Assembly: GCF_030064895.1 (NCBI RefSeq)
Contig: NZ_JASJEB010000007.1
Coordinates: forward strand, 1 to 64,000
Reading direction: 5' to 3'
Length of the DNA stretch: 64,000 nucleotides
Source: Crocosphaera sp.
GTDB taxonomy: Bacteria; Cyanobacteriota; Cyanobacteriia; Cyanobacteriales; Microcystaceae
The notes beneath the pieces are model-generated. The model saw only the letters and a list, made by a program, of their open reading frames with translations. It did no database searches and was not told the DNA's origin. This document shows, piece by piece, positions 41,810 to 46,782 of the stretch. Numbering within the stretch: position 1 is the stretch's first letter; each line of letters begins with the position of its first letter. The translations under genes were made by a program, and so were the position numbers.

Positions 41810-43051
41810 ATGCTAACCATGACCTACGAGTACAAACTGCAACCGACTCCTGAACAGATTGCCATCATTGAGCAAACTCTTGATGTGTGTCGTTCTGTCT
41901 GGAATTTTGCGCTAAGGCAGCGCAAAGATTGGTGCGCCTCTCGTAAGTCCCCTGTCAATGCTTGCTCCCTCAATTGTGAATATATCATTTCTGCTGATGA
42001 GCCTTTCCCAAATTACCATAGGCAAGCCAAGGAACTAACCGATGCTAAAAAGCAATATCCTCAGTTAAAGACAGTCCATTCTCAAGTTCTTCAGCAAACT
42101 TTAAGAACTTTGGACAGGGCTTGGGATGACATGAGAGCCAGGGGCTTTGGTTTCCCTCGCTTTAAAAACAAGTATCGTCTGCGTTCGTTTGTCTTTCCAC
42201 AGTTGGGGAAAGACCCCATTAGAAATGATGCTCTGAAACTTCCCAAACTAGGATGGGTTAAGTGGAGACTATCTCGACCAATTCGGGAAGGGTTTCAAGT
42301 GAAGCAAGCCAGGGTTGTTAGAAAAGCATCTGGTTACTTTGTAGCTCTGTCACTACAGTTAGATGTTGATGTCCCTAGTCCTATGCCTCATGGTCATCCT
42401 AGAGGGTTAGACTTAGGATTTGACAAGTTTGTGGCTACTTCCGACGGTGAGGAGATTAAACGGCCTAGATTTCTTACGACTTTACAGAGCAAGGTTGAAT
42501 TACTGCAACGTAGGTTGAAGAACAAACAGAAAGGGTCAAATAATCGACACAAGTTAAACCAGAAAATAGCTAGGCTACATCAGCGTATTTCCGATACTCG
42601 CAAAGACTGGCATTTTAAGTTAGCTCATCATCTTTGTGATGGTACTGGAATGATATTTGTAGAAGATATAAACTTTGTCAGTTGGCAAAGAGGAATACTA
42701 TCAAAACATAGTGCTGATGCTGGCTTTGGCCAGTTTGTCAATATTTTGGAGTGGGTATGTTTTCGGAGAGATGTCTACTTTGCCAAGGTAAATAAAGACG
42801 GCACATCCCAGACCTGTCCTAACTGTGGCGCACACACAGGAAAGAAAACTCTAGATATCAGGGTTCATTACTGTAATGAGTGTGGATATACAACTACAAG
42901 AGATGTAGCAGCTTCTCAAGAGATAAGGAATCGTGGAATCTTTGCGCTAGGGCATAGCGTAGTTAAAAATGTCTGTGGACTGGAAGCGACGGGGAGTATT
43001 GTTCACAATACTCTAGTTGGCACAGGACGAAGCAGAAAACTAGCATCGTGA
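41810..43051 (+). CDS. tnpB: TnpB RNA-guided nuclease of an IS200/IS605-type element
   Basis: This 413-residue protein keeps all RuvC residues: D201 in 'RGLDLGFDK', E285 in 'MIFVEDINF' and D365 in 'TTRDVAASQEI'. A CPxC...CxxC zinc ribbon ('CPNCGAHTGKKTLDIRVHYCNECGY') lies between the last two. The N-terminus 'MTYEYKLQPTPEQIAIIEQTLDVCRSVWNFALRQRK' is the helix-turn-helix typical of the family. TnpB cuts DNA beside a short TAM, guided by an RNA made from the 3' end of its own element. No tnpA is present, so the element depends on a transposase elsewhere. The gene appears complete and possibly active. Confidence 0.95.
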   Translation: MLTMTYEYKLQPTPEQIAIIEQTLDVCRSVWNFALRQRKDWCASRKSPVNACSLNCEYIISADEPFPNYHRQAKELTDAKKQYPQLKTVHSQVLQQTLRTLDRAWDDMRARGFGFPRFKNKYRLRSFVFPQLGKDPIRNDALKLPKLGWVKWRLSRPIREGFQVKQARVVRKASGYFVALSLQLDVDVPSPMPHGHPRGLDLGFDKFVATSDGEEIKRPRFLTTLQSKVELLQRRLKNKQKGSNNRHKLNQKIARLHQRISDTRKDWHFKLAHHLCDGTGMIFVEDINFVSWQRGILSKHSADAGFGQFVNILEWVCFRRDVYFAKVNKDGTSQTCPNCGAHTGKKTLDIRVHYCNECGYTTTRDVAASQEIRNRGIFALGHSVVKNVCGLEATGSIVHNTLVGTGRSRKLAS

Positions 43052-44832: not shown

Positions 44833-46782
44833 ATGTTTTCTCAACCTATTAGCGTATTAATTATAGATGATGATCGACAAGATAGATTGACTCTTATACA
44901 CTATCTAAGCAGACACAATGAGCAAAATTATCAAATCTTTGAAGCATCATCGGGAAAAAAAGCATTAGAAACACTGACGACAGTTAAAGTAGATGGGGTT
45001 ATCTTAGATTTCCATTTATCAGATATGAATGGTATTGAATTTCTTCAGAAACTACAAAATCATTTTTTTTATAGTAACTTTGCTGTAATAATATTAACAG
45101 AATTTGGTAATGAATCTGTGGCAATGGAAGCTATAAAAAATGGCGCACAAGATTACCTAATCAAAGAAAATTTAACCCAAGAAAGCTTACAAAAATCATT
45201 ATATTTAGCGGTTGGCAGAGTTAAACTACGTCGAGAATTAGAAAAAAGTGAACAAAAGTTTCGAGGAACTTTTGAACAAGCAGCAGTGGGTATTTATCAT
45301 ATTAATTTAGTCGGACAATTTGTACGACTTAATCAAAAATTTTCTCAAATTACAGGGTATTTTTCAGAAGAAATAAAACAAAAAACTATAGAGGAAATTA
45401 TTTTTTATGAAGATTTCCCCAAGTATCAAAGGCAAATACAAAGACTGTTAAATCACGAGACACAAACTCTTAGATTAGAACAAAGGTTACTGAGGGGAGA
45501 TGGCTTAATTATTTGGATAAATATAACAGTTTCTATTATTAATAAAAAAGATGGTAGTCCTGATTACTTACTAGGAATCGTAGAGGAAATTCAAGAAAGA
45601 AAACAAACAGAAATTAAACTGAAAAAAGCCAATCATAAATTAAAACAAATTGTCGGACAATTAGCCAAACAAAATCAGGAACGAACCCTACTAAGTCGAG
45701 TTAGTCAATTTCTACAATCTTGTAACAGTATAGAAGAAGCGTACAAAATTTTAGCCGATTTAATTCAACCCTTATTTAGTGATTGTTCCTTGGGAATTTA
45801 CCAACTTAATGAGCAGCAAACTTTTGCAACGTTAGTATCATCTTCGGGAGATTTTCTTAACAGTAAAAAAGAATTTAGATTCTCTGAATGTTGGGCATTA
45901 AGACAAGGAAAAGCCCATTATAATGATATTAATCATAGTCAATTATTTTGTCCTCATGTGGAAACAAATTTAATGACTCGAGCAACTTTATGTTATCCCA
46001 TTGTTGCCCAAGGAAAAACTTTAGGCATTCTTCATATAAGTGCTACCGACCAAACTAAATTAACTCCACAAACAGAAAATTTAGCCAAAACAGTGAGTGA
46101 TTATCTGACCTTATCTTTGGCTAATTTAAAATTACGACAAGACTTAAAAAATCAAAGTATCAGAGATTCTTTGACAGGATTATATAACCGTCGTCATCTT
46201 TATGAATTTCTGGACAAAGAAATTAGTAAAGCGCAACGACATAAGAGCAATATTGGTATTATTTTGATAGATATTGATCATTTCAAAAAAATTAATGATA
46301 TAGCAATAGACAGGCTAGTTAGGACACATAAATTATATTTTAAGGGAACAGGGAACAGGGAACAGGGAACAGAAAAATGTCCTAATAGCTTTGGCGACTG
46401 CTATAACTATAATCATGGTTTCGGGGATGTGGTTTTAAGAGATATGGGAGAATTTTTAAGTAATAATATTCGAGAATCAGATATTGCTTGTCGTTATGGG
46501 GGAGAAGAGTTTATTTTGATTTTTCCCCATGCTAATTTAGAGAATACTCATAAACGGGCCGAAGTTTTGAGAAAAAAGATAAAACGTCTTCATTTTCGTT
46601 TTCAACAACATCATTTAGACTCTGTTACGGTATCCATTGGTGTTGCTAATTTTCCTCGACATGGGTTAACTGGAGAAGATGCAATTCATTATGCTGATCT
46701 TGCCCTTTTTGAAGCTAAAAAACAAGGACGCGATCGCACTGTTATTTACACTGAAGAGTTATCAGATAACAGCAAAGATTGA
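44833..46782 (+). CDS. REC-PAS-GAF-GGDEF diguanylate cyclase interrupted by an in-frame MITE
   Basis: This 649-residue protein has a response-regulator receiver (about 6-125, phospho-acceptor in 'VDGVILDFHLSDMNG', 'VIILTEFG', 'GAQDYLIKENL'), PAS (about 140-260), a short coiled coil, GAF (about 285-435) and GGDEF (about 445-640, signature 'RYGGEEFILIF', a cyclase-competent GGEEF). The GGDEF metal/GTP segment 'DIDHFKKIND' is split from 'HGFGD' by 35 inserted residues (see the MITE entry). Without it the text reads the canonical IND-NYNHGFGD. It would make c-di-GMP on phosphorylation, but activity is doubtful with the insert. The end overlaps rbsK tail to tail by 37 bases. Confidence 0.88.
   Translation: MFSQPISVLIIDDDRQDRLTLIHYLSRHNEQNYQIFEASSGKKALETLTTVKVDGVILDFHLSDMNGIEFLQKLQNHFFYSNFAVIILTEFGNESVAMEAIKNGAQDYLIKENLTQESLQKSLYLAVGRVKLRRELEKSEQKFRGTFEQAAVGIYHINLVGQFVRLNQKFSQITGYFSEEIKQKTIEEIIFYEDFPKYQRQIQRLLNHETQTLRLEQRLLRGDGLIIWINITVSIINKKDGSPDYLLGIVEEIQERKQTEIKLKKANHKLKQIVGQLAKQNQERTLLSRVSQFLQSCNSIEEAYKILADLIQPLFSDCSLGIYQLNEQQTFATLVSSSGDFLNSKKEFRFSECWALRQGKAHYNDINHSQLFCPHVETNLMTRATLCYPIVAQGKTLGILHISATDQTKLTPQTENLAKTVSDYLTLSLANLKLRQDLKNQSIRDSLTGLYNRRHLYEFLDKEISKAQRHKSNIGIILIDIDHFKKINDIAIDRLVRTHKLYFKGTGNREQGTEKCPNSFGDCYNYNHGFGDVVLRDMGEFLSNNIRESDIACRYGGEEFILIFPHANLENTHKRAEVLRKKIKRLHFRFQQHHLDSVTVSIGVANFPRHGLTGEDAIHYADLALFEAKKQGRDRTVIYTEELSDNSKD
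46301..46405. mobile_element. 105-bp MITE inserted in the GGDEF coding region
   Basis: TAGCA...TGCTA ends flanked by TA on both sides fit an IS630/Tc1-type MITE with a TA target duplication. The ends extend as imperfect terminal repeats of about 26 bases (TAGCA.T...GCTA.TTAGGACA). The middle holds about four copies of a GGGAACA heptamer. Removing the 105 bases with one TA restores the reading GAT-AAC-TAT-AAT-CAT, i.e. D-N-Y-N-H. The insert adds exactly 35 codons with no stop. It resembles the cyanobacterial Nezha-type MITEs, from memory. Confidence 0.88.

Follow-up and report, generated by a model that had tools for sequence, protein, structure and literature searches.

An IS630/Tc1-Mariner-Type MITE Inserted in Frame between Two Active-Site Motifs of a Crocosphaera GGDEF-Domain Response Regulator

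In a genome of Crocosphaera sp., the GGDEF domain of a diguanylate cyclase-type response regulator is interrupted by 35 codons that leave the gene open to its end. This locus raises the question of whether the additional stretch is native to the domain or the trace of a mobile element, how long it has been in place, and what it has done to the enzyme. The original prediction, made from the 64,000-nucleotide stretch of DNA analyzed here (the window), was of a TA-flanked MITE lying in frame within the GGDEF active-site region, and that view is borne out by the copy number of the element, its identical copies, its TA flanks, and the empty sites in relatives. We consider it very probable that the gene was struck very recently by a bursting MITE of the IS630/Tc1-mariner type, probably helped by an IS, and that this most likely ended cyclase activity. 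Taken alone, the cyclase case is ordinary mutational damage; the interest of the MITE family lies in the youth and uniformity of its burst.

The element and its insertion site

The host gene contains no stop codon across the element, and its 649-amino-acid product has the domain order REC-PAS-GAF-GGDEF, with Pfam matches to Response_reg (residues 8 to 119), PAS_3 (residues 164 to 250), and GAF_2 (residues 298 to 427) and a GGDEF match that is split into two stretches (best, residues 526 to 635). The features of the locus are as follows, in window coordinates and with the supporting evidence in parentheses.

44833..46782, + strand: host gene, diguanylate cyclase-type response regulator (open reading frame [ORF] of 649 amino acids, insert included)
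46270..46299, + strand: DIDHFKKIND part of the GGDEF domain, upstream of the insert, with the equivalent of PleD Asn335 (alignment to PleD 2wb4)
46299..46300, + strand: 5' TA target duplication (TA on both sides in 84 of 85 copies; single TA at congener empty sites)
46299..46326, + strand: 5' terminal inverted repeat plus TA, TATAGCAATAGACAGGCTAGTTAGGACA (base pairing with the 3' repeat when folded as RNA)
46301..46403, + strand: MITE of 103 bp without a difference from the A-type consensus (core found 92 times in the genome; 72 of the 88 copies with two ends are identical)
46344..46371, + strand: four GGGAACA heptamers inside the element (heptamer pattern search)
46378..46405, + strand: 3' terminal inverted repeat with TA, TGTCCTAATAGCTTTGGCGACTGCTATA (pattern search)
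46404..46405, + strand: 3' TA target duplication (evidence as for the 5' TA)
46414..46431, + strand: HGFGDV part of the GGDEF domain, downstream of the insert, with the equivalent of PleD Asp344 (alignment to PleD 2wb4)

The element runs TAGCAATAGACAGG...GGCGACTGCTA from position 46301 to position 46403, and its ends, TATAGCA...TTAGGACA, are imperfect inverted repeats that are alike at 19 of 28 positions and different at 9. Folded as RNA, the ends pair with a z score of -3.2, and 1 of 200 shuffled sequences was equally stable. The two-unit 14-mer of GGGAACA (at most one mismatch) matched at three overlapping positions in the element and had no match in the rest of the window (0.02 expected by chance), and the element core had a single match within the window (0.01 expected by chance). 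With a length of 103 bp, the MITE is too short to have a transposase of its own and is read solely as 35 residues of the host ORF. A GCGATCGC motif, which we read as a sign of cyanobacterial origin, lies at position 46731 of the window.

The insert is located after IND and before NYNHGFGD, and its target TA spans the junction of the Asp and Asn codons in IND-NYNH. The 105 bp and 35 codons first ascribed to the element correspond to 103 bp plus one TA, which keeps the frame, and the GGGAACA repeats and lack of a stop codon that had been noted are present as four units in an ORF that is open to its end. It had also been proposed that excision with one TA restores D-N-Y-N-H exactly. As a reading of the empty site, this agrees with the orthologues (D-N-Y-S-H), but exact restoration is a matter of arithmetic, and excision may not be clean, because the ISY100 transposase is reported to cut two bases inside the 5' ends (PMC2170065). 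The term “exonised,” which had been applied to a tolerated repeat, is unfit for a bacterium.

Copies across the genome and their host genes

A search of the 5.5-Mb genome, a check suggested together with the original prediction, returned 92 matches to the element core (two types, with 77 and 15 matches), against none for a reversed control pattern; a 93rd match, which has three mismatches and is unlike the others, was excluded. Both ends were present in 88 of the 92 copies, and 72 of these 88, including the window copy, were identical over 103 bp, placing the same sequence as the window copy at 71 other places. TA was found on both sides in 84 of the 85 copies with readable flanks, and the remaining copy had TA and TG. 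Shortness, inverted ends, TA duplication, dispersed near-identical copies, and an autonomous partner with like ends were all found, as expected of a MITE of the IS630/Tc1-mariner type. As far as searches of the open-licence literature show, rather than comparison with repeat libraries, the family is a new one of an already described type.

A second subfamily comprises 13 identical two-ended copies in which GGCAACA replaces GGGAACA and which carry three other fixed differences (e.g., L203:4234, L206, and L208). Because this subfamily is also uniform, with fixed differences, two separate bursts seem to have occurred. Three short copies (L189, L195, and L202) have one or two heptamers and lengths of 82 and 89 bp; together with the TA they add 84 or 91 bp, so that heptamer number sets whether the frame survives. 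A different inverted-repeat end, TATAGCAACCGCCAAGGCAATTAGGACA, was observed at L252:1444-1471 and L253:634-661 and marks a further related element family.

Five DDE_3 matches were found in the genome, and for one of these, L153, TATAGCAATCGCCAGGGCGATTAGGACA and the complement of TATAGCAACCGCCAAGGCGGTTAGGACA form the boundaries. This IS630-type element (L153:135-1092; 958 bp, flanking TAs included) contains HTH_Tnp_IS630 and DDE_3 domains in two frames. The transposase (L153:198-1072) reads as two frames whose overlap lies on a run of A; we infer a frameshift, and the overlap suggests that it is programmed. Against the two ends of the L153 element, the complement of the MITE 3' end has 4 and 5 differences in 28 positions, and the MITE 5' end has 6 and 7; likeness to the left end of L153 is thus 24/28 for the 3' end and 22/28 for the 5' end. 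Beyond the ends, the MITE and the L153 element share nothing except short chance matches, and an origin of the MITE as an internal deletion of an L153-type IS is ruled out, since the ends alone match. For the same reason, we regard L153 as a candidate helper rather than a proven parent, and a closer parent IS may be missing from this assembly of 188 contigs. Four more left ends identical to that of L153 over 118 to 120 bp are located at contig ends, suggesting that there are several recent copies.

An L153-type IS is the probable source of the transposase by which the MITE would be moved in trans. The analogy is with ISY100 (ISTcSa), an IS630/Tc1-mariner element of Synechocystis that is reported to act by TA-specific cut-and-paste, duplicates TA, has imperfect inverted repeats (24 bp) similar in length to those of the MITE, and requires no more than 30 bp from each end for transposition (PMC2170065). 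HTH and DDE transposase domains are likewise present in L153. In contrast to ISY100, the MITE has no transposase and L153 reads as two overlapping frames; the likeness is one of described features.

Standard insertions of the MITE keep the frame because 103 bp and a duplicated TA add up to 105 bp. Only one of the six combinations of orientation and phase is free of stops, and the cyclase copy uses that one; the 105-bp step together with this combination explains why the cyclase gene is readable to its end. The open combination is shared by 10 other predicted genes, giving 11 predicted in-frame cases in all, 2 of which (L063 and L158) have short upstream parts without codon-usage support. Copies were called intragenic from open frames and from codon usage learned on 31 ORFs of the window rather than from annotation, and by this test 27 of 69 assessable copies are intragenic. 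Assessable copies are two-ended and have flanks of 300 bp or more on each side; short flanks excluded 19 of the 88 two-ended copies, and the other 4 of the 92 are without one end.

The open combination was present in 11 of the 27 intragenic copies versus 22% expected from the TA phases in window ORFs (P value = 0.024) and, with stricter cutoffs, in 11 of 26 (P value = 0.017) and 8 of 20 (P value = 0.057). The T|A phase accounted for 18 of the 27 copies versus 44% expected (P value = 0.03), and a comparison of orientations at the same phase gave 11 versus 7 (P value = 0.24). Because the bias is weak and is partly one of phase, we claim no selection for the open frame from these counts by phase and orientation. 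The intragenic share (27 of 69) was lower than expected from the 74% of window TA sites that lie in ORFs of at least 100 amino acids (P value = 8e-10). This depletion in genes is only consistent with purging, because the baseline is the window alone and missed genes lower the count of 27.

A Pfam scan of 9 of the 10 other open-frame hosts gave matches for 6 (nSTAND1, HEPN_AbiU2, DUF4440, 23S rRNA-IVP, Uma2, and short-chain dehydrogenase) and none for 3. The insert abuts or falls inside the matched domain in five of the six, DUF4440 being the exception, and for this reason the insertions look indiscriminate. In the short-chain dehydrogenase gene (L206), the open-frame insert is located between TSRMGS and YRMSK, presumably the catalytic Ser and Tyr-Lys of these enzymes, and it is possible, to judge from these motifs, that a second active site is split in frame here. 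The fate of the 11 predicted in-frame protein chimeras could be traced across strains, and the MITE copies would allow one to ask fairly whether selection retains in-frame repeat insertions or whether these are awaiting loss.

Age of the insertion and fate of the cyclase

Orthologues of the cyclase gene in four congeners (G003, G005, G006, and G008) are gap-free across the site and have one TA, in GAT AAT TAT AGT CAY (D-N-Y-S-H); no close orthologue was found in the other four of the eight congeners (G001, G002, G004, and G007), three of which are less than 90% complete. The insert was also absent from the site in all of 35 distant GGDEF proteins, each of which keeps IND-3-H-2-GD. These proteins were drawn from 80 loci (genome contig search, none labelled cyanobacterial, from which records of the own genome or near ones may be missing) and are biased toward canonical domains because the search partly used the DHFKKIND pattern. 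Presence in sister strains had been proposed as a check, and occurrence of the 35-residue insert at this site across many species had been named as the sign of a native feature; all 4 congener orthologues have the empty site and all 35 distant proteins are without the insert, which points the other way. The comparison of empty sites covers the window copy, 1 of 92, and the species is represented by a single genome, in which we read the window insertion as real.

The window copy differs from the family consensus at 0 of 103 positions (upper 95% bound, 2.9%), and this bound is small beside the silent divergence estimated for the gene's own branch (0.07 to 0.65 across gene pieces). The original prediction had offered a recent hit and a tolerated repeat as alternatives, and the recent hit is favored because none of the 103 bases departs from the consensus. 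At least 28 of 50 genomes of the family searched for the MITE had a match, with no more than 17 candidates scored in most of them. Among the matches listed, a full-length MITE outside its own genome was present only in G007 (three, 86 to 93%) and G056 (one, 79%), those in G002 to G006 and G008 cover the heptamer tract and a few neighboring bases, and G001 has one 47-bp match to the MITE 3' end plus heptamer tracts. GGGAACA tracts were also seen in G005, G006, G018, and G021 at places without a full MITE match, among the matches listed. The MITE may have captured a common heptamer repeat, as such tracts in relatives stand apart from full MITE matches. The burst is a clean, early-caught MITE example, with dozens of identical copies and an empty site known at the cyclase locus.

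In PleD, Asn335 and Asp344 contact the guanine of GTP. Alignment to PleD (2wb4) placed the Asn335 equivalent of the window protein just before the insert and the Asp344 equivalent just after it, and the spacing between them increases from 9 to 44 residues, which departs from the IND-3-H-2-GD pattern. The seven positions listed as catalytic markers of PleD in PMC6629876 (327, 332, 335, 344, 370, 442, and 446) all have the PleD residue in the window protein, with the qualification that position 370 is Asp in that list and Glu in the 2wb4 chain. At the 28 columns that are invariant in the 35 other GGDEF proteins, the window protein has the usual residue in 26, Phe197 and Asp205 being different, and at domain position 98 it has Asn versus Gly in 34 of the 35. 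The AlphaFold2 model (36 sequences) has a mean pLDDT of 89, with values of 74, 61, 49, and 57 for ten-residue blocks over the insert and of 83 to 98 for the others; a predicted helix (positions 55 to 75) starts before IND and enters the insert, after which comes a stretch of low confidence. PleD and DgcB are among the GGDEF structures that the model matches, and the model core is intact. The window protein resembles PleD-type GGDEF cyclases in its predicted fold and seven marker positions and differs from them in having 35 residues inserted between the equivalents of Asn335 and Asp344.

Because the insert sits between the Asn335 and Asp344 equivalents, we expect the protein to bind GTP far less well or not at all, in line with the probable loss or change of GTP binding originally suggested, and cyclase activity would most likely be abolished or strongly impaired, although a flexible loop might, in principle, still permit closure of the site. 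The RESD motif ahead of GGEEF, which we take to be an I-site pattern, is intact, and binding of the product may therefore remain. It is conceivable, but in our view highly improbable, that the MITE acts as a mobile in-frame peptide that seeded chimeric proteins in one burst, with the cyclase turned through its RESD motif into a receptor or decoy that binds c-di-GMP and does not synthesize it.

According to the reading that we prefer, an IS630-type IS of the same genome would have moved the MITE in trans, the number of MITE copies rose very recently to at least 92, and one copy entered the TA shared by the Asp and Asn codons of IND-NYNH in the cyclase gene. The 105-bp step and the stop-free orientation and phase left the gene readable to its end, and translation would yield a product lengthened by 35 residues at this point, in which the GGDEF fold and RESD are kept and the enzyme is most likely dead or strongly impaired. 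Copies of this kind represent natural insertion mutants in an active site.

Other readings of the locus fare less well. That the stretch is a native GGDEF insert, or a domain variant resembling a repeat, has a probability close to nil; no evidence in its support was found, and it is ruled out by the identical 103 bp at 71 other places and by the empty sites in congeners. The chance of an assembly artefact, with a repeat consensus wrongly stitched into the gene, is also very slight: a number of copies are located at contig ends, a sign of assembler trouble with the repeat, but the TA duplication is exact, the flanks are gap-free against the orthologues, and 103 bp should be inside short-read reach. 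We also think it unlikely that the insert is tolerated, with its 35 residues forming a floppy loop on a working cyclase whose rate or regulation is perhaps changed. The retention of the frame and of the seven marker positions, the confidently modeled GGDEF core, and the excess of open-frame copies among intragenic ones would fit such tolerance, whereas the 35 residues lie between two catalytic marker residues, the orientation bias is unsupported at equal phase, and an element without a change in 103 bases is too young for long testing by selection.

It is quite possible, if short of probable, that the cyclase domain was already losing constraint and that the MITE struck a gene of little importance, a view that is compatible with a recent hit by the bursting MITE. 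Unique changes in the GGDEF domain number 23 replacement and 5 silent on its own branch versus 13 and 35, respectively, when three congener branches are pooled (P value = 4e-6; G008, whose contig ends 122 bases beyond the site, was excluded from the counts), and this excess is greater than that in the rest of the gene (P value = 0.024) and in two nearby control genes (P value = 0.012). Among the four genus members compared, only this one has the change from Tyr to Phe at domain position 197, a column that is invariant in the 35 GGDEF proteins. However, these tests are post hoc with small counts, and the own branch is a long one on which the replacement ratio is also raised in the rest of the gene (P value = 0.002) and in one control gene, the ABC transporter (P value = 0.001). 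In addition, when the own branch was considered by itself, comparison of the GGDEF domain with the remainder of the gene gave a P value of 0.32, and 26 of 28 invariant columns are kept. We regard the pattern of substitutions as suggestive of relaxation of the GGDEF domain, and an earlier loss of constraint as a secondary reading.

Related systems and neighboring features

Among the titles and abstract openings listed for part of the open-licence papers found, there was no report of a MITE inside a GGDEF domain. MITEs of the IS630/Tc1-mariner type, tandem repeats inside MITEs, in-frame repeat insertions, and cyclase disruption by mobile elements have already been described (PMC10969869, PMC4596501, PMC5896051, PMC8899612). 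For example, mobile elements also strike GGDEF genes in Ferrovum, where one sample had 37 variable gene disruptions, 9 of them in such genes, and the authors propose an adaptive loss of cyclases (PMC8899612). The cyclase insertion therefore has a ready context in a proposal made elsewhere, although the Ferrovum case concerns gene disruption within one population and ours is a single in-frame MITE inside a cyclase active site.

Rickettsia palindromic elements are short mobile repeats with an open frame that lie in frame within unrelated protein genes (PMC10969869). In contrast, the MITE described here uses its open frame in a minority of intragenic copies (11 of 27), with a weak bias, and has IS630-type ends and a TA duplication. 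Nezha, an active cyanobacterial MITE, is likewise a short element of cyanobacteria (PMC10969869), a likeness drawn from the title of its report. The BrickBuilt MITE of Porphyromonas gingivalis also contains a tandem repeat unit, but its units are of 23 bp and it is reported to be always intergenic (PMC4596501), whereas the unit here is of 7 bp and genes contain 27 of the 69 assessable copies.

No tRNA was found in a scan of the whole window. The ABC transporter orthologues at L258 (G006) and L259 (G005) each have one TAA in the match to the window gene. Positions 41810-43051 of the window contain a 413-amino-acid ORF with a CPNCG...CNECG pattern, which we take to resemble an IS605-type TnpB.
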